Made by a program: the position numbers and the translations under genes
The notes under the pieces: generated by a model
What the model saw: the letters and a program-made list of their open reading frames with translations, nothing else
The model's database searches: none
Told to the model about the DNA's origin: nothing
Origin: Rhodothermales bacterium
GTDB lineage: Bacteria > Bacteroidota > Rhodothermia > Rhodothermales > JANQRZ01
Reading direction: 5' to 3'
NCBI GenBank assembly: GCA_028284265.1
Contig: JANQRZ010000003.1
Span: forward strand, 124,001-188,000
Length of the DNA stretch: 64,000 nucleotides
In this document: one piece after another, positions 16,252 through 35,827 of the stretch
Position numbering within the stretch: position 1 is the stretch's first letter
Layout: each line of letters starts with the position of its first letter

Positions 16252-17408
16252 TGCGCCCGCCGTCCCATCTCGCCCTGCCCTTCTTCGAGGCACACCACCG
16301 CGACCTCGCGCATGAACTTGGCGTGTGGGCGGCGGAGCACGTCGAAGAGGAGCCAGAAGACGAAACCGAAGCGTGTCGGTCGCTCGTTCGGGCGATGGGG
16401 GAAGTGGGGTGGCTGACGTTGTGCGTACCCTCGCCCGCCGGTCGGTTTGAGCAGCTCGACGTGCGGAGCCTCTGCCTCGCCCGCGAGACGCTCGGCTACC
16501 GCTCGGCCCTCGCCGACTTCGCCTTTGCGATGCAGGGTCTCGGGGCTGGACCGATCTCGTTGTTCGGAAACGAGGAGCAGCGCGAGGCCTATCTGCCCGC
16601 CGTCGCCCGAGGCGAGAAGGTCGCGGCCTTCGCGCTCTCCGAGGCTGAAGCCGGGTCCGACGTAGCTGCCCTCGCTACGACCGCCACGCCCGATGGCGAA
16701 GGCTTCGTACTCAACGGCGAGAAGACGTGGATCTCAAATGCGGGCATCGCCGACTTCTACGTCGTCTTCGCCCGTACCGGCGAGGGGTCGCGCGGCCTCA
16801 GCGCCTTCATCGTGGACGCTGGTACGCCAGGCCTCGACGACACTGCATCGATTCCGCTCATCGCGCCACACCCGCTCGGCACGCTCACGTTCACCGACTG
16901 CCGGGTGCCGCGCTCGGCGCTGATCGGCGAGCCGGGGCACGGGATGCGAATCGCCCTCTCGACGCTTGACGTGTTTCGCACGACGGTCGGGGCTGCCGCG
17001 CTCGGCTTTGCCCTGCGGGCACTCGATGAAACGCTTCGCCACGTCCGCTGCCGCGAACTCTTCGGCGGGACCCTCGCCGACCTGCCGGTCGTCCAGAGCA
17101 AGCTGGCCGTGATGGCGACCGAGATCGACGCGAGCGCGGGGCTGGTCTACCGCGCTGCCTGGACCAAAGACGCCGGGGCCGAGCGCGTCACCAAGGAGGC
17201 CGCGATGGCGAAAGCCTACGCGACCGAAGCCGCGCAGCGCGTGATCGACGCAGCGGTGCAGCTTTTTGGCGGGCACGGCGTCACAACAGGCTCGGTCGTC
17301 GAGCGACTCTATCGCGATATCCGTCCGCTTCGTATCTATGAGGGCGCGACCGAAATCCAGCACCTCGTCATCGCCCGCCAACTGCTGAATGAGGCGGAGT
17401 CCAACTAA
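16251..17408 (+). CDS. Acyl-CoA dehydrogenase
   Basis: A 385-residue FAD-dependent acyl-CoA dehydrogenase. Visible motifs are [26 protein letters not shown], the FAD/C-terminal segment [20 protein letters not shown] and IYEGATEIQ near the C-terminus, with the glutamate position typical of the catalytic base. It overlaps the hydratase by one base. In this cluster it would oxidise the alicyclic or ring-opened CoA thioester produced from aminobenzoyl-CoA. That substrate is inferred from neighbours. Confidence 0.88.
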
Positions 17409-17423
17409 ACTCTCTGTGTCATG

Positions 17424-17511
17424 TCATCTTGAGCGGAGGCCCCAAGGGCCGAAGTCGAAAGATCTCTCTAGGCAGTCTCGTTAGAGATCCCTCGACTTCG
17501 CTCGGGATGAC
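17424..17511. repeat. GTCAT-bounded palindromic repeat, copy C
   Basis: Runs from GTCATCTTGAGCGGAGG to CTTCGCTCGGGATGAC between the dehydrogenase and the Rid-family gene. Inner AGATCTCTCTA and TTAGAGATCC segments pair. An in-frame upstream extension of the Rid gene would be encoded by this repeat, which argues against that longer start. Confidence 0.75.
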
Positions 17512-17524
17512 GAGAAAAAGAACT

Positions 17525-17914
17525 ATGACGATTCTCCAACCGCCGGACTGGGCACGACCGAAAGGCTACGCGAACGGTATCCTCGCCGAAGGTCGGCTGC
17601 TGTTCGCGGCCGGACAGATCGGGTGGGACGCCGAGCAGCGACTCGTCGCGGGCGGCCTCGTCGCGCAGACCGAGCAGGCGCTTCGCAACATCGTCGCCGT
17701 GCTGCGAGAGGGTGGGGCCGGGCCGGAGCACATCGCCCGAATGACGTGGTACGTCACAGACAAGCACGCCTACAACGCCGCACTCGCCGAGATCGGGCAG
17801 GCGTACCGCGCTGTGATCGGCAAACACTATCCGACCATGACGCTCGTCGAGGTGGCCGATCTGCTCGAACCCGGCGCACAGGTGGAAATTGAGGCCACGG
17901 CGGTCGTACCCTGA
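17525..17914 (+). CDS. Rid-family (YjgF/YER057c/UK114) protein
   Basis: A 129-residue single-domain protein: FAAGQIGWD, TEQALRNIVAVLREGG and VEVADLLEPGAQVEIEA match the Rid fold. Canonical RidA carries an arginine in the ARSxVEV region that binds the carboxylate of imine substrates. Here the equivalent reads TMTLVEV with no arginine, so imine deaminase activity of the RidA kind is doubtful. Rid members occur in aromatic amine pathways, and the position between the acyl-CoA dehydrogenase and the CoA ligase suggests handling of an enamine or imine released from the amino-substituted ring. ATG 17525 avoids the repeat-encoded extension. Confidence 0.85.
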   Translation: MTILQPPDWARPKGYANGILAEGRLLFAAGQIGWDAEQRLVAGGLVAQTEQALRNIVAVLREGGAGPEHIARMTWYVTDKHAYNAALAEIGQAYRAVIGKHYPTMTLVEVADLLEPGAQVEIEATAVVP

Positions 17915-18019: not shown

Positions 18020-19639
18020 ATGGAACCCTCCGCCCACCGCGACACCTTCGCCCGCGATCATCTTCCGCCGCAGGACCTCTGGCCCGACCTGATCCTCGAA
18101 GGCGACTTCGCCTACCCGCCGCGCCTCAACTGTGCTGTCGAACTCCTCGATAAGAACGTAGAGCAGGGCGAAGGAGACCGCGTGCTCTTCCACACCCCCG
18201 ACGGGACGCAGACCTATGTCGAGTTTTTGTTCGAAGTCAACCGGATCGCGCACGTCCTCGTGGATGACCTCGGCCTCGTACCCGGCAACCGGGTGCTGCT
18301 GCGCGGGCCGAACACGCCGCGCCTCGCTGCGTGCTGGTTTGCCGTCGTCAAGGCGGGCGGCATCTGCGTCACGACGATGCCGCTGCTCCGGGCCTACGAG
18401 TTGACCTACACCGTCGAGAAGGCCCGCGTCAGCCACGCGCTCTGCGACGCCCACTTCCGCGACGAACTAGACAAGACGCTCGCTGAGACCGACCGCCTCG
18501 AATCGGTCGCCTATTTCCATTCCGACGCCGACGATGGTCTCGAAGCCCGAATGGCTGCGAAGCCCGACACGTTCGCCGCCGTGGATACCGCCGCTGACGA
18601 TGTGGTGCTGATCGGGTTTACGTCGGGCACGACGGGCAAGGCGAAGGCGACGATGCACTTCCACCGCGACGTGCTCGCCATCTGCGATGCCTTCCCGAAA
18701 TCCTGCCTCGACATCGGGCCGGACGACGTGGTGATCGGCTCGCCGCCGCTCGCGTTCACCTTCGGCCTCGGCGGCGATTTGCTGTTCCCGATGCGCGTCG
18801 GGGCGTCGTGTGCCTTCATCCCGAAGCCGAGCGTCGATACGATCCTCCAGACGATCCACGATTACGGCGCGACCGTCTGCTTTACCTCGCCGACAGCCTA
18901 CCGCGCTATGCTCGGTCGCTTGGATGAGTTCGACGTGTCGAGTCTCCGACAGTGCGTCTCCGCAGGCGAGCCGCTCCCGGCTCCGACGTTCTATGCATGG
19001 CACGAGGCGACCGGCATCAAAATCGTCGATGGCATCGGCTCGACCGAGATGCTGCACATCTTCATCTCGGCTCCCGAAGACGCCATCAAGCCCGGCACGA
19101 CCGGCAAGCCGATTCCCGGCTACGAGGCGAAGGTCGTGGACGACGACTTCGGCACCGAAGCCGCCCCCGGCACGGTCGGCTTCCTTGCCGTGCGCGGCCC
19201 GACAGGATGCCGCTACCTCGATGACCCGGAGCGGCAGCAATCGTATGTCAAGGATGGCTGGAACTATCCCGGCGACGCCTACCTCATGGACGAGGATGGC
19301 TACTTTCACTACCAGTCTCGCACCGACGACATGATCATCACCTCGGGCTACAACGTCTCCGGCCTTCAGGTCGAGAGCGTGCTCCTGAAGCACGAAGCGG
19401 TCGGGGAGTGCGGCGTGGTCGGCGTGCCGGACGAGGCGCGGGGGCACCTCGTCAAGGCGTTCATCGTGCTCCGCGAAGGGTTCGATGGGAGCGAGGCTCT
19501 CGTCAAGGAATTGCAGGACTTCGTCAAGGCGGAGATCGCACCGTACAAATACCCACGCGCCATCGCGTTCATGGACGCCCTGCCGCGCACGCAGACCGGC
19601 AAGCTCCAGCGCTTCCGGTTGCGGGAACAGGAGGGGTAG
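18020..19639 (+). CDS. Aryl-CoA ligase, probably 2-aminobenzoate-CoA ligase
   Basis: A 539-residue adenylate-forming enzyme with the P-loop-like FTSGTTGKAKATMHFH, the SPPLAFTFGLGGDLLFP core, GIGSTEM, YPGDAYLMDEDGY and the C-terminal lysine motif PRTQTGKLQRFRL. The SPPLAFTFGLGG segment is typical of benzoate/2-aminobenzoate-CoA ligases. It would activate anthranilate to the CoA thioester used by the fused monooxygenase at 5903-8212. In-frame starts exist at 17948 and 17972, but the ATG at 18020 directly precedes the conserved N-terminus (DTFARDHLPP). The substrate is assigned by context. Confidence 0.78.
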   Translation: MEPSAHRDTFARDHLPPQDLWPDLILEGDFAYPPRLNCAVELLDKNVEQGEGDRVLFHTPDGTQTYVEFLFEVNRIAHVLVDDLGLVPGNRVLLRGPNTPRLAACWFAVVKAGGICVTTMPLLRAYELTYTVEKARVSHALCDAHFRDELDKTLAETDRLESVAYFHSDADDGLEARMAAKPDTFAAVDTAADDVVLIGFTSGTTGKAKATMHFHRDVLAICDAFPKSCLDIGPDDVVIGSPPLAFTFGLGGDLLFPMRVGASCAFIPKPSVDTILQTIHDYGATVCFTSPTAYRAMLGRLDEFDVSSLRQCVSAGEPLPAPTFYAWHEATGIKIVDGIGSTEMLHIFISAPEDAIKPGTTGKPIPGYEAKVVDDDFGTEAAPGTVGFLAVRGPTGCRYLDDPERQQSYVKDGWNYPGDAYLMDEDGYFHYQSRTDDMIITSGYNVSGLQVESVLLKHEAVGECGVVGVPDEARGHLVKAFIVLREGFDGSEALVKELQDFVKAEIAPYKYPRAIAFMDALPRTQTGKLQRFRLREQEG

Positions 19640-19642
19640 AGG

Positions 19643-20053
19643 TTACACCGTGACGCTCTCCGTCTTGGTGCCGTCTGACCCCTCGACCTCGACGTTGACC
19701 GTCAAGTCGCCGGGTCGCTCCGTGGTACTAACCCGCTTGGTGTATCTGGCCTTGCCAAGATTATCTCCCTCTGTGCCAGTCGTGAGCTTGATTGCATCCC
19801 CGATCCAGGGCGTGAACTTCAGCTCCGCACCTCCTAGAGGTTCGCCGTTGCAGGTGATCGTCACATCAACGCGCACGTTCCAGTTGCTGGCCGATCCGCC
19901 AACGGTCTTGGATGCACTGATGCCGATTTGATCCTTGGGGCAGTCTGTGGCGGTGAGGGTAATGGTTGGCGTAGACGGACCGGGGCAGCCGGCCCAGACA
20001 ATCATCAGGATCGCCGCGATGAGCGTTGGGGCGATGAGTTGGTATCGGGTCAT
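19643..20053 (-). CDS. Small lipoprotein of unknown function
   Basis: A 136-residue protein with a clear lipobox (LMIVWAGC, cysteine near residue 23) followed by an all-beta region (TITLTATDCPKDQIGIS, VRVDVTITCNGEPLGGAEL, LTVNVEVEGSDG) that looks like a single Ig-like domain. It converges with the CoA ligase, the stop codons being almost adjacent. A second lipoprotein lies 43 bases upstream on the same strand, so the two may form an operon. I do not recognise the family. Confidence 0.7.
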   Translation of the reverse strand: MTRYQLIAPTLIAAILMIVWAGCPGPSTPTITLTATDCPKDQIGISASKTVGGSASNWNVRVDVTITCNGEPLGGAELKFTPWIGDAIKLTTGTEGDNLGKARYTKRVSTTERPGDLTVNVEVEGSDGTKTESVTV

Positions 20054-20096
20054 GTCTCCTCCGCGTCTGGTGAACGTTGGAACAGGCGGTGCACCG

Positions 20097-20846
20097 TCAG
20101 AGCAGGTCCACTTGGGCGTTCGCTTTCAGGTCGGCAGAGGTGTCCGCCGTGCCGTTGGCTGTGATCTCGAACTCAAGCGTGTAGGTGCCGGGCGTCAGCA
20201 TGAAGGTGCCACTCGTGTCGGCGCGCTGGATGGTGTCTCCGCTGGGCATCGTACCATCGGCCTGCCCCCAGCGCTTGATGTCGAGAGTCGTCGGCGTCGC
20301 GCCGTTCTGGGCGAACTCGTACTTGGCTTGCGTGTCCGACCCCTGCACGGGTGGACCGGTCTGTCCCGGCGTGGCCGGGGCCGAGCGGATACGGGCCACG
20401 ACGAGGTAGTCCGCGAGGCCGCTGTCGAGCGCGACGGTCGCCGCGCTCTGGACCACGAGGCGACAGGTCGTGTCCGCCGCGACGGTAAAAGTGCTCGTCG
20501 CCTTCGTGTTGCCGAATGCGATGGCGAGGTCGGTCGGGTTGGCTCCCGGCTCGGCGTGGACATCGACCGCGATGTCGCGGTAGGTCGTCGGTGTGGAGGT
20601 TGCGGTCGTCAATTGGTCGGACGATGACGCCGTGGTGGTGGACCGGTAGTTGGTGGCCGGGCCGTTGCCGTTGTCCTTGTCGTCGGTGCTCCCGTGAACT
20701 TGGAACGCTTCGTTGGCCCCGAGTGTCGGCTTCGCCGTGCCCTGACCTCCGCCCCCGCCGTTGTCATCGTCGCCGCACCTCGCCAAGAACAGAATCGCCC
20801 CGATGCCGAGGAGGCAGGTGAGCAAGACCCGCTGTGTGTATCTCAT
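20097..20846 (-). CDS. Surface-type lipoprotein of unknown function
   Basis: A 249-residue lipoprotein with lipobox LFLARC (cysteine near residue 24). The cysteine is followed directly by GDDDN and five glycines. In Bacteroidota an acidic run just after the lipidated cysteine acts as a surface-export signal, so the protein may face outward. The rest is Thr/Ser-rich beta structure (YRDIAVDVHAEPGANPTDLAI, DTTCRLVVQSAATVAL, GTYTLEFEITANGTAD), consistent with a bacterial pre-peptidase-like or carbohydrate-binding fold, but no family is certain. Probably co-transcribed with the lipoprotein at 19643-20053. Confidence 0.7.
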   Translation of the reverse strand: MRYTQRVLLTCLLGIGAILFLARCGDDDNGGGGGQGTAKPTLGANEAFQVHGSTDDKDNGNGPATNYRSTTTASSSDQLTTATSTPTTYRDIAVDVHAEPGANPTDLAIAFGNTKATSTFTVAADTTCRLVVQSAATVALDSGLADYLVVARIRSAPATPGQTGPPVQGSDTQAKYEFAQNGATPTTLDIKRWGQADGTMPSGDTIQRADTSGTFMLTPGTYTLEFEITANGTADTSADLKANAQVDLL

Positions 20847-20985
20847 GGTACCTCGCAGGTGAGATGGATAGGGTCAAGGCCCATAGTAATAAAAATCTTG
20901 GACAATTGCATGGTGCTCTGTCCAGAAACGCTAGAACAACGCCCCGGCTGCGTCGTACTCGCCTGTCTTCTCACCCCACCGCCCG

Positions 20986-21792
20986 ATGGACCTCTGGCTC
21001 TACGCGCTCGGCAGCGTACTCCTCGTCAGCCTCGTCTCGCTCGTCGGCGTCTTCACGCTGTCGCTGAACGCAGCCCGGCTGGAGCGGATCGTCTTCCTCC
21101 TCGTCTCGTTCGCTGTCGGGGCGATGCTCGGCGGAGCGATCATCCACCTCATCCCGCGGGCCTTCGCCGCACTCGGCGACCATACGGCGAGCCTCCTCGT
21201 CCTCGCAGGCGTCTTCACCTTCTTCGTACTGGAGAAGTTTCTCCACTGGCGGCATGATCACGGGGTGGCTGGTGTCGTCGCCGATGCCGAGGTGGCCGAG
21301 GCGCTGGAGATCGAGCGCGAGCCGGTCAAACCATTCGCTACGATGAACCTCGTCGGCGATGCGGCGCACAACCTGATCGACGGCGCGGTGATCGCAGCGG
21401 CGTACCTCGTCTCGATCCCGGCAGGTATGGTGACGACGGTGGCGGTGATGCTCCATGAGATCCCGCAGGAGATCGGCGACTTCGGGGTGCTCGTCTACGG
21501 CGGGATGGAGCCAAAGAAGGCGTTGAAGTACAACTTCGTCTCGGCCCTCGCCGCTGTGGTCGGCGCGCTCCTGTCGCTCATTATCGGCACGCAGGTCGAA
21601 GGCTACGCCGACTACCTGCTCCCGATCACCGCTGGGTCGTTTATCTACATCGCCGGGAGCGACCTCATCCCCGAGCTAAACCACCACCACAGCTACCCCG
21701 CAACGAAGTCGGTGTGGCAACTCGTGATGATCCTGCTCGGCGTCGGGGTGATGCTGCTCCCAGCCATTCTCGGCTTCGACGCCCGGCACTAA
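20986..21792 (+). CDS. ZIP-family divalent metal transporter
   Basis: A 268-residue polytopic inner-membrane protein with about eight hydrophobic segments. Transmembrane helices carry the ZIP metal-binding motifs HNLIDG and HEIPQEIGD, and helix II has HLIPRAF. A cytoplasmic loop between them contains a His pair (HWRHDHG) and acidic residues. ZIP proteins import zinc, iron or manganese; the metal cannot be told from sequence. It is divergent from the lipoprotein pair and converges with the following SDR. Confidence 0.9.
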   Translation: MDLWLYALGSVLLVSLVSLVGVFTLSLNAARLERIVFLLVSFAVGAMLGGAIIHLIPRAFAALGDHTASLLVLAGVFTFFVLEKFLHWRHDHGVAGVVADAEVAEALEIEREPVKPFATMNLVGDAAHNLIDGAVIAAAYLVSIPAGMVTTVAVMLHEIPQEIGDFGVLVYGGMEPKKALKYNFVSALAAVVGALLSLIIGTQVEGYADYLLPITAGSFIYIAGSDLIPELNHHHSYPATKSVWQLVMILLGVGVMLLPAILGFDARH

Positions 21793-21794
21793 GG

Positions 21795-22613
21795 CTATTT
21801 CATCTGCGAGCGGATGACGGCGTCGAACAGGCGGTCGGGGAGCAGGGCACGGGCGATGAGGGAGGTGCGGGCCTGCTCGCCCGCGACGTAGCGCGTCTTG
21901 GGCTTCTTCGCCGTGGCGGCCTCGAAGATCACGTTGCCGATGAGGCTCGGTGGCGAGCCGGAGCCTTCCTTGTAGCTGTTCTCGAAGAGGCGCTTCGTCT
22001 GGGCGGCGAACTCGGCGTACGGGCCGCTGCCCGAGGTCTCCATCATGTTGTCGATGGCGATGCCGCCCCACTCGGTCTTGATGGCCCCCGGCTCGACGAT
22101 CACGACGTTGATGCCGAAGTCGTGGAGTTCGAGGCGGAGGGCGTCGGAGAAGCCTTCGAGGGCGTGCTTGGTGGCGTGGTACCACGCGCCGAGCGGCGTG
22201 TAAATCTTGCCGCCCATCGACGAGATGTTGATGATGGTGCCGGAGCGCTGACTCCGCATCGTCGGGAGGACGAGTTGGATGAGTCGGGCGAGGCCAAACA
22301 GGTTGACATCGAACTGCCGTCTGGCTTCGTCGAGCGGGACATCTTCGACCGCCCCGTAGGAGCCGTAGCCCGCGTTGTTGACGAGGGCATCGATGCGGCC
22401 TTCGGCGTCGAGGATGGTCTGGACGCCAGCGGTAAGTGAGTCTTCGTCGGTCACATCGAGGCCGAGGGCGTGGCCGCCGCGTGCTTCGAGGTTCTGCATC
22501 CGCTCGACGCGGCGGGCCGCGCCGTAGACCGTCCAGCCTGCGTCGAGGAAACGTTCGGCAGCGGCCTTGCCGATGCCCGAGGATGCGCCGGTGATAAGTG
22601 CAACGGGTTTCAT
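21795..22613 (-). CDS. Short-chain dehydrogenase/reductase
   Basis: A 272-residue classical SDR: ITGASSGIGKA, VNNAGYGSYG, catalytic Ser in NISSMGG and YHATK (YxxxK). The substrate is unknown. It is divergent from the MarR-type regulator at 22750, and a perfect palindrome (22668-22684) sits between their start codons. It is therefore a likely regulatory target of that repressor, as is common for redox enzymes controlled by MarR proteins. Confidence 0.85.
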   Translation of the reverse strand: MKPVALITGASSGIGKAAAERFLDAGWTVYGAARRVERMQNLEARGGHALGLDVTDEDSLTAGVQTILDAEGRIDALVNNAGYGSYGAVEDVPLDEARRQFDVNLFGLARLIQLVLPTMRSQRSGTIINISSMGGKIYTPLGAWYHATKHALEGFSDALRLELHDFGINVVIVEPGAIKTEWGGIAIDNMMETSGSGPYAEFAAQTKRLFENSYKEGSGSPPSLIGNVIFEAATAKKPKTRYVAGEQARTSLIARALLPDRLFDAVIRSQMK

Positions 22614-22667
22614 AGTAGCGTTGGATTCAGGTTGGTGGTAGTGCCTTTACCAGTTCGGACATTGGAT

Positions 22668-22684
22668 GTTTCAATTATTGAAAC
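22668..22684. promoter_or_regulatory. Probable MarR operator
   Basis: GTTTCAATTATTGAAAC is a perfect 17-bp palindrome in an AT-rich stretch between the divergent SDR (start 22613) and MarR (start 22750) genes. MarR proteins bind such palindromes as dimers and usually repress themselves and a divergent enzyme gene. The site also argues for the MarR start at 22750 rather than 22666, because the latter would place the operator inside the coding sequence. Confidence 0.7.
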
Positions 22685-22749
22685 GTACAATAAGGAAACA
22701 TAGTGAAGAGGGAGAGGGTAGAGGCTTGGCGACCCCAACTACCGCTCTC

Positions 22750-23187
22750 ATGCCGATAGCCGCGAAGCAGATCGACGCCTTTTCCCAAGCGCTCCAGCAC
22801 TGGGCGATGCGCTACATGCGCGTCGTCGGCCAGCAGTCGTCCGCCCACGACGCGTTCAGCAAGCAGGAGCTATTGGCGCTCAACGTGCTGGATGTGCGCG
22901 GCCCGAGCCGGATGGGCGAACTCGCCGCGCACCTCGGCGTCGGGCAGAGCGCGGTCACGCCCCTCGTGGACCGACTGGAGGAGGGCGGCATGGTCCGCCG
23001 CCGCCGCAGCGACACCGACCGCCGCGTTTGGCTGGTCGAGTTGACCGCCGAAGGCGCGCAGACCGTCGCCGCCGAGAACGACGTATTTCGCAGAATGGCC
23101 GAGGAGATGCTGGGCGCGCTGAGTAAAGAGGAGCGAACGACCCTCATCGCCCTGTTCGAGCGGATCGCAGCCCCGCCTTTAGCCTAG
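22750..23187 (+). CDS. MarR-family transcriptional regulator
   Basis: A 145-residue winged-helix regulator, the normal MarR length. The recognition region reads GELAAHLGVGQSAVTPLVDRLEEGGMVRRRRSDTDRRVWLVELT, seen in successive segments around residues 58-100. The DRR wing and LT-E-G motif are typical of the family. It probably controls the divergent SDR and itself through the palindrome at 22668-22684. The ligand is unknown. Confidence 0.9.
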   Translation: MPIAAKQIDAFSQALQHWAMRYMRVVGQQSSAHDAFSKQELLALNVLDVRGPSRMGELAAHLGVGQSAVTPLVDRLEEGGMVRRRRSDTDRRVWLVELTAEGAQTVAAENDVFRRMAEEMLGALSKEERTTLIALFERIAAPPLA

Positions 23188-23265
23188 TGCGGCGTTGGCG
23201 TGTTGCTATTGTCCGCCGTCTTTGGCTGCGACTTGTGCTATCGAAACAATATGAGCAATAGTGTT

Positions 23266-23937
23266 TCATCGGAGTAGCTCTTCGCAATCTTCCAGTAGAC
23301 CCTTCTTTCGTTGCTTTATCAAAAGATCGTCAACGTCTTGGCACCATCTAATCATTGTCCTAGTGGATTTTTGCGTCAACTCCGCGAGTTCCTTCATAGT
23401 ATTGCGACCGACTCTATGCAGTAGCCATACGCGTTTTCTTTTAGGAGAGACATCTCTTAGAGCTTCCATTAGCGCTGTATAGCAGTTGTGGCTAATGACT
23501 TGAGGGTCAATTATTTCTAATGTGTCTTGTGTTTCTTGAATTGTTTCTCTGTCTTCATCAAGAGAACTGAAGGTGGAGTTGTATTTAGCCAACCCGCGCA
23601 TCTCTTCTTTCCAAATATAAATCAAGAACCTAACAGTATTTCCAAACAGATGAGCTCCATCTCCATAGTGTGATCGTCCCTCAACTCGCCGACTACGCAT
23701 CAATCGGTAGCACATCTCACTATAGACTCCACTCTCTGCCTGATCTACTAAGCGCTTATTCTTAGTGATGCTATATCCGAGTGCTAAGGTGGTCTGCTTG
23801 ATTCTCCCGCCGAAAGATATTAGGTATTGTTCCATAGCCTCGCCAACGCGATCACTATCGTTGAAGAGCACTGCGATCCTATCCGCTGCCATTTTTTCCT
23901 CTTCTCCAAGTTCATTATATCTGAGGCTTGTGCTCAT
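23266..23937 (-). CDS. Sigma-70-like (ECF-type) regulator in an AT-rich island
   Basis: A 223-residue protein. Its C-terminal part (about 155-215) fits sigma region 4: ALMEALRDVSPKRKRVWLLH, then MKELAELTQKSTRTMIRWC as the helix-turn-helix. The middle (about 75-125) with FGNTVRFLIYIWKEEMR could be a divergent region 2. Overall it resembles ECF-like sigma factors with weak region 2 conservation; a stand-alone HTH regulator is the alternative. Base composition is clearly lower in GC than the flanks. It is divergent from the membrane protein at 24040, with 102 bases between them, so it may control that operon. Confidence 0.6.
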   Translation of the reverse strand: MSTSLRYNELGEEEKMAADRIAVLFNDSDRVGEAMEQYLISFGGRIKQTTLALGYSITKNKRLVDQAESGVYSEMCYRLMRSRRVEGRSHYGDGAHLFGNTVRFLIYIWKEEMRGLAKYNSTFSSLDEDRETIQETQDTLEIIDPQVISHNCYTALMEALRDVSPKRKRVWLLHRVGRNTMKELAELTQKSTRTMIRWCQDVDDLLIKQRKKGLLEDCEELLR

Positions 23938-24039
23938 AGAATGAGGAAAAGAAAAAATTTCAGGCTACTTATGTCACCCTTGAGGGAAGATAATTCATTT
24001 CGTCCCGAAACCCGCCAACAACCATTGGAGGAACATCCG

Positions 24040-25074
24040 ATGAACCGCAAACGCTTCGGGATTACCCTACTGCTCACGGTTTCCCTTTTCGGGATTGCTC
24101 TGCTGTTCAAAGCTTACAACAACCCTACCTCCCCCATTAACAACTCGCCTCACATTGTAAGGACTCAAGTTATGAACGAAGACTCTCTTTTGGTGGACGT
24201 TGAGTTCTCTGCGTTCAACGAAGAGAAGATTCAGGAATTTCAGAACGCTGCAAATGGGATTGCTGATGATATGAATCATCGAGTCAACTCGCTAGCACAG
24301 CCCAACTCAAGTGGTGTTGATGCAAGCTTGAGTCTAGAATGCGACGTGTGGTGGGATGAAACCACCCTGAAAGTGCCTTACCTAGTGAAAGGCACGACAA
24401 CGATTGCTAAGATGGATGTGCCCAAAATCAGGAAACACCGACTAGAGCTGAAATTTGACTTTCCGAGCGTCCGTTGGGCAGTAAAGCATATTGGGTATTA
24501 CCCCAAGTGCGATTGGCTTAAGTGTCGAAAAGCAGAGATTAAGACCAAGATTCCGATTTTCTATAAGAAGCGTGTGGAGTTGAAATTTGATGTCCCTGAG
24601 GTCTATTTCGAGTACGAAGAGATTGAGATGGACCTCCCCAAAACCTACACAACAGAATGGAAGTTTGGGGTTCCCAAGCTCAAATGCAGCGACCTCAAGG
24701 GTGAGTTTGCAGAGTATGAGGAACAGGTGGATGAGATTGTTGCGGAGGGAGAAGCTGAACTCAGTAGGCTAGAAATTCAACTGGTAAAAGAGTTGACATC
24801 TGGCACAGCGGATCAGATCAGTACAAAGCTTGACGCTGCGAAGAGGCAGATTGAGTCTGCAATCGCCAGTGCAAAAGCCACATTCGATGAAGCACTTGCT
24901 GACATGAACGAGGATGTCGAAGCCGCACGGGCTTTCGGGCGTGAAGGCCTTCTTCTGTCGGCTCGCGGTGAGCTCGAACGGCGACGGGACGAAACGATGC
25001 AATCCTTCCGAATTCAACTCGAAGAGATAGATGAACAGAGAGAGCTACTTCTCGCACACTCTAACGATTCGTAG
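24040..25074 (+). CDS. Membrane-anchored repeat/coiled-coil protein, unknown family
   Basis: A 344-residue protein in the AT-rich island. Residues 7-23 (GITLLLTVSLFGIALLF) are a single N-terminal membrane anchor. Residues 110-215 hold eight strand-like units, each with an alternating hydrophobic/charged strand ending in xDxPxV (KMDVPKI, KFDFPSV, TKIPIF, KFDVPEV, EMDLPKT, KFGVPKL). Their prolines lie at 113, 128, 142, 155, 172, 186, 200 and 212, a period near 14. Residues about 220-340 are highly charged and helical, probably coiled coil. ATG 24040 is preceded by GGAGGA at good spacing; upstream in-frame extension is rejected. I know no family with this layout. Confidence 0.75.
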   Translation: MNRKRFGITLLLTVSLFGIALLFKAYNNPTSPINNSPHIVRTQVMNEDSLLVDVEFSAFNEEKIQEFQNAANGIADDMNHRVNSLAQPNSSGVDASLSLECDVWWDETTLKVPYLVKGTTTIAKMDVPKIRKHRLELKFDFPSVRWAVKHIGYYPKCDWLKCRKAEIKTKIPIFYKKRVELKFDVPEVYFEYEEIEMDLPKTYTTEWKFGVPKLKCSDLKGEFAEYEEQVDEIVAEGEAELSRLEIQLVKELTSGTADQISTKLDAAKRQIESAIASAKATFDEALADMNEDVEAARAFGREGLLLSARGELERRRDETMQSFRIQLEEIDEQRELLLAHSNDS

Positions 25075-25106
25075 ACTGAAAGTCATTAGGTTGTAGATTA
25101 TCTGAG

Positions 25107-25141
25107 TACGGAGTCCTCTTGTTCACCAAGAGGACTCCGTA
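25107..25141. promoter_or_regulatory. Perfect 15-bp hairpin between two island genes
   Basis: TACGGAGTCCTCTTG at 25107-25121 and its exact complement at 25127-25141 are separated by a five-base loop (TTCAC). There is no T tract after the stem. It lies 32 bases after the stop of the repeat protein and 30 bases before the next start codon. It could be an attenuator, an RNA-stability stem or a processing site between the two genes. Confidence 0.6.
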
Positions 25142-25171
25142 CCGTTGCTGCTATATAGACGAGGAAATGAA

Positions 25172-25972
25172 ATGAGCAAACCTGAGCGTGGTGCCGTAGA
25201 GCAGTTCAAACATGATCTGGCCTCTCTTCCACCTATCCCCGACCCCCGGTACCTCAAAGCGGTTCTTTGGATTGCCGTATTGCTAGCGCTGGCTTCGTTT
25301 CTGCTAGCAACGGTTACATCCAGCGACACTTATTCGCTTCTCACTTTTTGTCTCTTGTCGGCCTCTACACTAGCGCTAGCGACAGTCTCATTCATTTCCC
25401 TCAAACGTCTCAGTGTTCTAGCAACTGCAACGAGGGAGTATGCCGAATCGCAATACGATAGAAATACGTCTCTGAGTCTTTCGATTAGCTCAATTAGCTC
25501 AGACCTACATGACGTGGTTGAGGAGTCTGATTGGTCTTCGCAATCGCTAGAAAGAACCTTGCCTACTATGCGTGTCTACGAGCGGCTGCTTCCAGACGTG
25601 CAAAGCACTCTATCAGCATGGGGTGCCTTAGAGCAAGAATTGAAGGCAGACTTGACACCTGAGCAAAGACAAGTCTTGGAAAGTGTGCCCAACGTAAACA
25701 GCTATCCGACTGCCGAAACAGCGCTTATGATCACTCTTCGTCAAATCAAGAGTGACTTGAGACTCATGAAGCAAGATATCGGCTCTCTCGCTACGGGTGT
25801 CGAGCAGGTCAATGCAGAGACAGAAAATCAAGCCGAGACCATCAGTAATCTCACACTCGTTCTTGAGATGTTTCGTGACGCTTGGGATCGATTAGTTCGG
25901 CCAGATAGAGAAGAGCAGGATGAACGAGATATCGGCGCGAGTGAAGCCAACAATGAGACCGATGGTCCTTAA
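25172..25972 (+). CDS. Two-helix membrane protein with cytoplasmic coiled coil, unknown family
   Basis: A 266-residue protein of the AT-rich island. Two adjacent transmembrane helices lie at about 29-48 (KAVLWIAVLLALASFLLATV) and 54-77. They are followed by a long Ser- and Leu-rich helical region (SLSISSISSDLHDVV, LRQIKSDLRLMKQDIGSLAT, AETISNLTLVLEMF) likely to form coiled coils, and an acidic tail. The ATG at 25172 has GAGGA about nine bases upstream. It follows the repeat protein on the same strand across a strong hairpin and probably belongs to the same transcription unit. No catalytic motif is visible. Confidence 0.75.
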   Translation: MSKPERGAVEQFKHDLASLPPIPDPRYLKAVLWIAVLLALASFLLATVTSSDTYSLLTFCLLSASTLALATVSFISLKRLSVLATATREYAESQYDRNTSLSLSISSISSDLHDVVEESDWSSQSLERTLPTMRVYERLLPDVQSTLSAWGALEQELKADLTPEQRQVLESVPNVNSYPTAETALMITLRQIKSDLRLMKQDIGSLATGVEQVNAETENQAETISNLTLVLEMFRDAWDRLVRPDREEQDERDIGASEANNETDGP

Positions 25973-25975
25973 AAC

Positions 25976-26950
25976 TCAACCACCGTAGCTTGCCGCGATG
26001 CGCTCGGCGGTGGCGCGGAAGGGGCGGAAGGTGATGCCTAGCTCCTCGCGCGCCTTGCGGTTGCTGTAGCGGTAGAACCGGCCCGAGATGCGAGCGGTCT
26101 CCCGCGTCAGCGTCGGACGCGACCGCGTCAGGCTGGCGACGATCTCTGAGGCGAACCCGGCCATGAGCGCGAGCGGCGGCGGCAGGACGATCTTCGGTCC
26201 CGACACGCCGAATGCGTCAGCGAGGGTGTCGAAGATAGCCTTCCAGCGGAGGTCTTCCGATCCGAGGAAGTAGCGCTCGCCGGTCTCGCCGCGTGCCATC
26301 GCGGCCCGGTGTCCAGCGGCCACGTCCTCCACGTCCACCACGCTCGTCCCACCCGCCGGAGCCGCCGGGATGCCCTTCCGCACCTTCGCCACGATCTCCA
26401 TCGTGTTCTCGCCCTCGCGCCCCGGCCCGAAGATCACCGCCGGGTTGACGATCACCGCATCCAGCCCCTCGGCGATGGCGCGGTGGGCCTCCAACTCCGA
26501 CTCGTGCTTGCTCCGGGCGTAGGCCGTGTCCATCTTCGAGCCGGTCCACTCCGCCGTCTCGTCGATCACGCCTGCGGGCTTCTCCGGGCGACCGAGTGCA
26601 GCCTGACTCGACGTAAGCACCAGCCGCCGCACACTCGCCTCTCGCGCCGCATCGACGACGTTCGCCGTGCCGACCACGTTGACGGCGTGCAGCCGCTCGG
26701 CATCCTTCGCCCCGCCGAACCCGACGAAGGCAGCGGTGTGGTAGACGTACTCGATCCCGTCCATCGCCGCGCGGACACTCTCGAAGTCGGTCACATCGCC
26801 GATGGCATGCTCGACATGGTCAGCGCTCTCGCCGAGAAGGTCGAGCGCGGAGGTCTCGCGGCGGAGGATGCGGACGGTCTCGCCTTCGTCCAGCAGTTGA
26901 CGAACGAGAACCGAGCCGAGAAAGCCGGTCGCGCCGGTAACGAGGATCAT
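25976..26950 (-). CDS. NAD-dependent epimerase/dehydratase (dihydroflavonol reductase-like)
   Basis: A 324-residue extended SDR: the start ILVTGATGFLGSVLVRQLL contains GxxGxxG, with VYHTAAFVGFGG, SSQAALG and YARSKHESE (YxxxK) following. The overall pattern is that of the dihydroflavonol-4-reductase/3-beta-hydroxysteroid dehydrogenase group common in bacteria. The substrate is unknown. The first ATG of the open frame is at 26998, but ATG 26950 puts the Rossmann motif at the N-terminus as usual. It converges with the AT-rich island, with four bases between stop codons. Confidence 0.85.
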   Translation of the reverse strand: MILVTGATGFLGSVLVRQLLDEGETVRILRRETSALDLLGESADHVEHAIGDVTDFESVRAAMDGIEYVYHTAAFVGFGGAKDAERLHAVNVVGTANVVDAAREASVRRLVLTSSQAALGRPEKPAGVIDETAEWTGSKMDTAYARSKHESELEAHRAIAEGLDAVIVNPAVIFGPGREGENTMEIVAKVRKGIPAAPAGGTSVVDVEDVAAGHRAAMARGETGERYFLGSEDLRWKAIFDTLADAFGVSGPKIVLPPPLALMAGFASEIVASLTRSRPTLTRETARISGRFYRYSNRKAREELGITFRPFRATAERIAASYGG

Positions 26951-34217: not shown

Positions 34218-35288
34218 ATGATACCTGAAGAGACACTGAACGACATCAAGGCTCGCCACGCTGAGGTCGAACGCCTGATGGCGACGCCGGAAGTCGCCAC
34301 TGACCCGACGCAGCTTGCTGATCTCGGACGCGAGCACTCCGAGTTGACGGACCTCAAAGCCAAAATCGAAACCGTCGAGGCGTTGCGGCAGGAAGCCGAG
34401 GACCTCCGCGAGATGGCCGAGATCGAAGAAGGGGAGATGGCGGACCTCGTCGCTGCCGACCTCGAACGGGTCGAGGCGAAGCTGCCAAAGGCGGAAGAAG
34501 CGCTCCGTCTCGCGCTCATCCCGAAAGACCCCGCCGATGCCAAGGATGCGATCCTCGAAATCCGCGCAGGCACCGGTGGCGACGAGGCCAGCCTCTTCAC
34601 CGGCGACCTGCTCCGGCTCTACACCCGCTTCGCCGAGCAGCGCGGCTGGAAGATCGAGATGATGGACGCCACCGAGGGCGCGCAGGGCGGGTTCAAGGAG
34701 ATCACCCTCTCCGTCAAAGGCCCGGAGGTGTTCGGGACGATGAAGTACGAGAGCGGCGTCCACCGCGTCCAGCGTGTCCCCGCCACCGAGAGCCAGGGTC
34801 GCATTCACACGTCTGCTGCGACGGTCGCCGTCCTACCCGAGGCCGAAGAGGTGGACATCGATATCCACCCGAACGATTTGGAGATCGACGTATACCGCTC
34901 ATCCGGCCCCGGCGGGCAGTCGGTCAACACGACCGACTCTGCCGTGCGGATCACCCACAAGCCGACGGGCCTCGTGGTGACGTGCCAGGACGAGAAGAGC
35001 CAGCACAAGAACAAGGACAAGGCCCTCCGCGTCCTCCGCAGCCGACTCTATCAGGCCGAACTCGACAAGATCAACGCCGAGCGGTCCGAGCAGCGCCGCG
35101 CTCTCGTCGGCTCCGGCGACCGCTCGGAGAAGATTCGGACCTACAACTACCCCCAGAGCCGCGTCACCGACCACCGCCTCACGGGCGATGACAAGAACCA
35201 CGCGCTCCAAGACGTGCTCAACGGCGACCTCGACGCCATCATCACCGCCCTCCGCATGGCCGAGAACGCCGAGCGGTTGAGTGGATAG
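34218..35288 (+). CDS. prfA: Peptide chain release factor 1
   Basis: A 356-residue release factor for UAA and UAG. The codon-recognition tripeptide is PAT at about 188-190, identifying RF1 rather than RF2, and the catalytic GGQ lies at about 232-234 (SSGPGGQSVNT). A TTG at 34203 would extend it by five residues, but that codon sits in the T tract of the glmS terminator, so ATG 34218 is preferred. Confidence 0.96.
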   Translation: MIPEETLNDIKARHAEVERLMATPEVATDPTQLADLGREHSELTDLKAKIETVEALRQEAEDLREMAEIEEGEMADLVAADLERVEAKLPKAEEALRLALIPKDPADAKDAILEIRAGTGGDEASLFTGDLLRLYTRFAEQRGWKIEMMDATEGAQGGFKEITLSVKGPEVFGTMKYESGVHRVQRVPATESQGRIHTSAATVAVLPEAEEVDIDIHPNDLEIDVYRSSGPGGQSVNTTDSAVRITHKPTGLVVTCQDEKSQHKNKDKALRVLRSRLYQAELDKINAERSEQRRALVGSGDRSEKIRTYNYPQSRVTDHRLTGDDKNHALQDVLNGDLDAIITALRMAENAERLSG

Positions 35289-35323
35289 TCTCGATAAAAT
35301 AGGGAGCCGAGTAGCGTTGATTG

Positions 35324-35827
35324 ATGACAGAGCTATTTGTCGATATTGAGGAAATGATAGCTTCGGGCTATGAGTCCGTGACTGTCGAGGCGGCAACGCA
35401 GCGTAATGACCTGATTCGTGCCCTCCTCACGTCTCCACTCGGTGCTCACCTCAGGTCTACCTCAGGTCAAGACGGTAAGCCTGCAAGTGGGGGGTGGCTT
35501 CTTGGCGCTGCGGCAATCAAGGACGATATAGAGGAGTATGCTCCGGGAGCAGTACTTTTCCCTTTTGGCTATTTGCCAGTTTGGTCTTCGGGAGGTGGAA
35601 ATCTGGTCGTTTATGGGCTGAAAGAAGATGCTTTCTTCTGGGCGGCGCACGATAGCTGGGATCCTGCTTCTGGCAGTATCACAATTCCGGGTACCTACGA
35701 GGAGATTGAGTTCTCACCGACGAACATATCGAGGGCACTCATTCTGATATCCAGTGATCCTCCTGATCGCTTCATCAGCGATCTGCTGAGTGGCTGCTAC
35801 GAAGCTGTACTTGAGGAGTTGGATTAG
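35324..35827 (+). CDS. SUKH/SMI1-like small protein
   Basis: A 167-residue protein of somewhat lower GC than its neighbours. PGAVLFPFGYLPVWSSGGGN followed by LVVYGLKEDAFFWAAHDSW resembles the SMI1/KNR4 (SUKH) fold, where a short loop with PFG and GN precedes a strand bearing VYxWDHD. SUKH members are often immunity proteins against contact-dependent or polymorphic toxins. No toxin gene is adjacent. The assignment is by pattern only. ATG 35324 is used; TTG 35321 is possible. Confidence 0.5.
   Translation: MTELFVDIEEMIASGYESVTVEAATQRNDLIRALLTSPLGAHLRSTSGQDGKPASGGWLLGAAAIKDDIEEYAPGAVLFPFGYLPVWSSGGGNLVVYGLKEDAFFWAAHDSWDPASGSITIPGTYEEIEFSPTNISRALILISSDPPDRFISDLLSGCYEAVLEELD

Follow-up and report, generated by a model that had tools for sequence, protein, structure and literature searches.

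The described systems that come closest to the locus reported here are ECF (group 4) sigma-70 factors, beta-pore-forming toxins together with podophage lower-collar proteins, and the YLATT and SLATT-type few-TM proteins of bacterial conflict systems. SLATT-type proteins with two TM segments (2TM) have been predicted to form pores in such systems (PMC7159879). The locus is a three-gene, AT-rich island in the window, by which we mean the whole stretch of 64,000 nucleotides analysed, within a 3.69-Mb genome (G000, contig 14). ORF1 resembles the ECF factors in size, in its region 4-like C-terminal part and in a weak region 2-like similarity, but it lies far below the curated cut-offs, its region 2 is highly degenerate, and no recognisable anti-sigma factor adjoins it. 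ORF2 shares with the toxins and collar proteins a very long antiparallel beta-hairpin, predicted between helical or globular parts and found through weak Foldseek matches; however, it has no sequence similarity to them and the TM-scores do not exceed 0.19. ORF3 is like the YLATT and SLATT-type proteins in its few TM helices and putatively cytosolic helical tail, whereas it matches neither PF20303 nor any other Pfam family, and the window island holds no YEATS or nucleotide-signal enzyme. We tentatively read the island as a horizontally acquired accessory envelope module around ORF2, the rod protein, with a membrane partner and a sigma-like switch, a possible account that is still open to considerable doubt.

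The first-pass annotation had described an AT-rich three-gene island, and this description holds: the three ORFs are in place as real open frames (Table 1), and the drop in GC lies exactly over 23266-25972. The GC content of this interval was 0.471, and all other stretches of equal length in the window had at least 0.607 (mean 0.647, SD 0.014). The GC3 values of ORF1, ORF2, and ORF3 were 0.43, 0.53, and 0.48, respectively, about half of those in the flanking genes (0.80-0.88). Only one other stretch of the window, 35276-35784, has a 500-nt GC below 0.52. ORF2 and ORF3 start with plausible ribosome-binding sites. The open frame of ORF2 begins upstream of the ATG at 24040, which has a good GGAGG site, and Met16 of ORF1 (at 23892) has the better ribosome-binding site and may be the true start. 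A sigma-70 promoter-like match was looked for in the divergent intergenic region, and none was found. Between ORF2 and ORF3 there is a perfect 16-bp inverted repeat with a 5-nt loop and no U-tract, and the RNA fold of 25075-25171 reached -35.4 kcal/mol (z -4.7). This hairpin has no second copy in the genome besides its own reverse strand, and the Rfam search gave no match. Since the inverted repeat separates the two genes, the two-gene unit proposed earlier for ORF2 and ORF3 is likely but not assured.

Table 1. Features of the AT-rich island and of the variable segment that contains it (positions in the window)
Feature	Position	Strand	Size	Basis or content
ORF1, putative divergent ECF-type sigma-like protein	23266..23937	-	223 aa (208 aa from the alternative start Met16)	
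Divergent intergenic region, probable control region	23938..24039			sequence
ORF2, predicted rod protein	24040..25074	+	344 aa	family homologues, AF2 model, hydropathy
RNA hairpin between ORF2 and ORF3	25106..25142			repeat search, RNA fold
ORF3, two-TM membrane protein	25172..25972	+	266 aa	hydropathy
Segment missing at the matching site of the same-family genome G002	21796..25985			BLASTN; holds the AT-rich island and the SDR and MarR genes

Horizontal acquisition, also suggested by the first-pass annotation, is well supported by an empty site, the composition, the rarity of the genes, and the occurrence of homologues on plasmids and on a phage contig. A gap of 88 bp separates the equivalents of the transporter-like gene (20986-21792) and of the NAD-epimerase-like gene (25976-26950) in G002, a genome of the same family. 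In G001, which is of the same genus, 492 bp lie between these two genes and contain a different ORF (L044:2595-3101, 168 aa, 55% GC), for which Pfam gave no match. Because of these spacings, the segment 21796-25985, its GC-rich SDR and MarR genes included, is inserted or swapped here, and the ORF at the same site in G001 suggests an integration hot spot. No tRNA or clear flanking repeat was seen at the segment ends. Of the 60 genomes that served as relatives, just one belonged to the same genus and one more to the same family; no convincing homologue of ORF1, ORF2, or ORF3 was found in 59 relatives, and the window was the only match of the ORF2 profile among 245 genomes of the class (1/245). 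An ORF2 match in G002 has an internal stop and overlaps opposite-strand genes, and the matches in G368 and G160 are short, weak, and confined to the C-terminal helices; none of these was counted as a homologue. Viral-contig scans with each window protein returned nothing. A second variable stretch (19627-20982) lies on the other side of a ZIP-like gene and carries two lipoprotein-like ORFs, one of them with weak similarity to invasin domain 3; it is missing from G001 (96-bp gap), so both sides of the locus vary.

An integration hot spot might also have gathered three unrelated AT-rich genes by chance, with ORF1 regulating something else. The unrelated lower-GC ORF at the same site in G001, the lack of conserved linkage of ORF1 and ORF3 to ORF2, and the strong RNA hairpin between ORF2 and ORF3, which also counts against our preferred reading, all fit such chance company. 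However, the three genes have a similar composition and a compact divergent layout, Skermanella has a similar layout including a sigma-like gene, and other lineages also encode a membrane partner after the rod protein. We consider this explanation unlikely.

The single-pass repeat and coiled-coil protein of the first-pass annotation is ORF2, and the hydropathy profile agrees, with a TM segment or signal anchor at the N terminus (residues 6-24). ORF2 and its relatives carry two arrays of proline-marked repeats with a spacing of ~14 residues and P-x-V/F-x-M in most; the arrays flank a variable loop, and helices come after them. The AF2 model, built on 11 sequences (pLDDT 70, pTM 0.47), contains two continuous strands, residues 101-157 and 162-216 (block pLDDT 64-89), between a helix at 54-86 and helices at 220-343. 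From these elements and the short turn, our reading of the model is that the strands may pair as one antiparallel hairpin of ~55 residues per strand. Two features fit this reading: the turn falls on the length-variable loop of the family, and all four cysteines of the protein in the window (101/216 and 157/162) sit at the two ends of the predicted hairpin. In the 11 aligned proteins, the loop cysteines are both present in 8 and both absent in 3, and a cysteine near the N terminus and one in a C-terminal helix are both present in 7 and both absent in 4, as read from the alignment without correction for relatedness. A cross-strand hydropathy test of the hairpin register gave no clear optimum. 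A predicted hairpin with this sequence depth, this pTM, and a register unsupported by hydropathy weighs against our preferred reading.

Known-fold searches of ORF2 gave only generic long-hairpin or helical matches. The weak Foldseek matches were mostly pores with long hairpins and collar or tail proteins of phages, including lysenin, aerolysin, protective antigen, and the upper tail of phage Andhra. The top VIA-align rows (ribosome recycling factor and others) lay mainly on the helices and were read as a common helical arrangement. A pore-forming effector would accommodate the Foldseek matches: ORF2 hairpins would form a beta-barrel pore, the two-TM partner would be its gate or immunity protein, and the producing cell would be killed or arrested on infection. 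The Gly-rich hydrophobic segments in two homologues (L028 and L031), the Abi neighbours of some relatives, and the pore formation predicted for SLATT-type 2TM proteins also point this way. But the TM-scores are low, the N-terminal anchor tethers ORF2 to its producer, and the predicted strand faces, with mean hydropathies of -0.74 to +0.43 that are mixed by parity on both strands, are not membrane-like. No face is uniformly hydrophobic, unlike the lipid-facing strands of a beta-pore-forming toxin or a membrane-spanning barrel, and we regard a pore as very unlikely.

A tblastn search with ORF2 revealed a remote homologue carried by two Agrobacterium Ti plasmids (pairwise E 1e-10), which then led to a Skermanella plasmid copy. 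Further homologues were found in Chryseobacterium, Bradyrhizobium, Bradyrhizobiaceae, Duganella, Sphingomonadales, and Neorhizobium, and on a tailed-phage contig (L026). The rod family had no significant match in Pfam, NCBIfam, PHROG, or PADLOC, and the PDB sequence search with ORF2 gave weak matches at most. ORF2 is thus the founder of an unnamed family that horizontal transfer has scattered over two phyla, in Bacteroidota and in Alpha- and Betaproteobacteria. Several homologues have no signal sequence and many stand alone. Since several lack the signal, periplasmic placement is not family-wide, another point against our preferred reading.

The neighbourhoods of some copies recall mobile-element cargo. 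On the phage contig, the rod gene (L026:5545-6624) is reversed between the portal and ClpP-like protease genes, a moron-like position. Another copy (L032) has TraG and relaxase-like genes nearby, and two kinds of plasmid, Ti and Skermanella, carry the gene. The rod could be a moron for surface exclusion that alters the envelope and serves its carrier by keeping phages from adsorbing or conjugative elements from entering. However, the ORFs adjoining the island include no integrase, relaxase, or phage gene, and three Chryseobacterium copies lie close to housekeeping genes within a two-component operon; such cargo is an improbable explanation of the window locus. In that operon (L023, L024, and L025), which is conserved, genes for a LuxR response regulator, a protein of unknown kind, a membrane protein, a HisKA_3 kinase, and the rod protein follow one another on the same strand. 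Regulators close to the rod gene, here and in Skermanella, speak for the module that we prefer.

ORF3 agrees with the two-pass coiled-coil protein annotated earlier, with TM segments at 30-48 and 57-75 (hydropathy) and a long C-terminal helical or coiled-coil region, which would be cytosolic by the positive-inside rule. Searches of Pfam, NCBIfam, PHROGs, and PADLOC gave no family match for ORF3, only coiled-coil matches, and no homologue beyond such matches was found in the genomes searched. Weak matches in G219, G247, G280, and G351 lie in open frames of >1,200 residues and were put down to coiled-coil similarity. The earlier statement that neither membrane protein resembles a known anti-sigma factor or defence family stands, as PADLOC matched neither ORF2 nor ORF3 and neither was recognisable as an anti-sigma factor. 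A membrane protein nevertheless recurs ~10-45 bp after the rod gene: a 2TM protein at two Bradyrhizobiaceae loci (L027 and L029; one of the two proteins matches CBS weakly) and YLATT (PF20303, E about 1e-22) at two Chryseobacterium loci (L023 and L024, not L025), directly after the rod gene. PF20303 did not match ORF3 at E up to 10, a search in which most weak matches are lost to the HMMER filters. In sequence, the Bradyrhizobiaceae pair, YLATT, and ORF3 are unlike one another, and what recurs is the kind of protein and its position.

The sigma region 4-like sequence noted in ORF1 proved real but weak, and ECF sigma factors were the best matches of the protein. ORF1 matched NCBIfam sigma70-ECF (TIGR02937) at E 3.5e-4 over residues 111-196, Sig-70_gmx1 at E 1.7e-4, and Pfam r4_2 (PF08281) at E 0.03, and hhalign against two ECF sigmas gave E 9.7e-6 (about 1e-5) over 49 columns of region 4. 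The scores were 20.2 against a curated cut-off of 42.9 bits for TIGR02937 and 14.3 against 25.7 for PF08281. Region 2 was reached by one weak genome match only, to a single ECF sigma (residues 72-196, 23% identity). The sole PADLOC match of ORF1 was CasR (E 0.04), the PDB sequence search gave no match beyond the weak coiled-coil or region 4 kind, and the single-sequence AF2 model had a pLDDT of 37, too low for interpretation. We regard ORF1 as a candidate divergent ECF-type sigma-like protein in which region 4 is supported and region 2 weakly so, and binding of the RNA polymerase core and transcription would be its putative role.

A second sigma-like/rod locus is found in Skermanella, where the sigma-like P0010 (NCBIfam sigma-70, E 2e-7) is encoded on the strand opposite the rod gene. 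Genes for a TPR protein and for a small peptide with a signal sequence lie between the two, and a secreted-looking coiled-coil protein follows the rod gene. This is the one such locus among roughly ten lineages, and because P0006 (ORF1) and P0010 have no detectable likeness, the pairing may be a coincidence. The first-pass annotation had pictured a dedicated regulator facing envelope proteins; the gene anatomy and this independent locus speak for it, but no homologue of ORF1 or ORF3 is linked to ORF2 elsewhere, which also tells against the module. The neighbourhood survey that it had proposed, with homologues that never co-occur as the refuting outcome, gave a mixed answer: ORF2 recurred, either by itself or beside another kind of membrane partner, ORF1 and ORF3 had no close homologues, and no other locus in the genomes searched had homologues of all three genes together. 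The partner and the regulator thus seem to be swapped between lineages around the rod family.

In the accessory envelope module that we prefer, ORF2 would be the core, a membrane-anchored, periplasm-facing rod with a very long beta-hairpin that would be borne by coiled-coil helices and braced by disulfides. Probably as an oligomer, a spike or a tube, it would touch or sense some part of the outer envelope. ORF3 would be the inner-membrane partner, its cytosolic coiled coil relaying or anchoring the state of the rod inside the cell, and ORF1 would be the dedicated divergent switch for activating the module, perhaps restrained by ORF3. As a reading, this mechanism of sigma-like switch, rod, and membrane partner is the most economical one, although most of it is what we infer. 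A bolder and distinctly more doubtful version is a mobile envelope device, with a disulfide-braced beta-hairpin rod of ~18 nm, an inner-membrane anchor, interchangeable few-TM partners, and a dedicated sigma-like or two-component switch, that would act as an envelope-contact sensor or effector against phages or mobile elements. If partners and regulators are indeed interchangeable, the family would provide a modular envelope sensor or effector that is directly testable in laboratory hosts, and control by sigma factors would reach to mobile modules of the conflict type.

The Ti-plasmid copy lies near AbiJ/Abi_C and PD-T4-5/AbiD-like genes. Such Abi neighbours, the phage-borne copy, and the copy with conjugation genes nearby favour a conflict-related accessory role. 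The defence role raised in the first-pass annotation is plausible for the rod module but no more than that: relatives beside Abi genes speak for it, but ORF2 and ORF3 are unmatched in PADLOC. In one Chryseobacterium genome, two rod genes that are almost identical lie 9 kb from each other (L020:7225-8181 and 16583-17539), and a CyanoTRADDas_TM protein and a tyrosine-recombinase-like gene are encoded between them.
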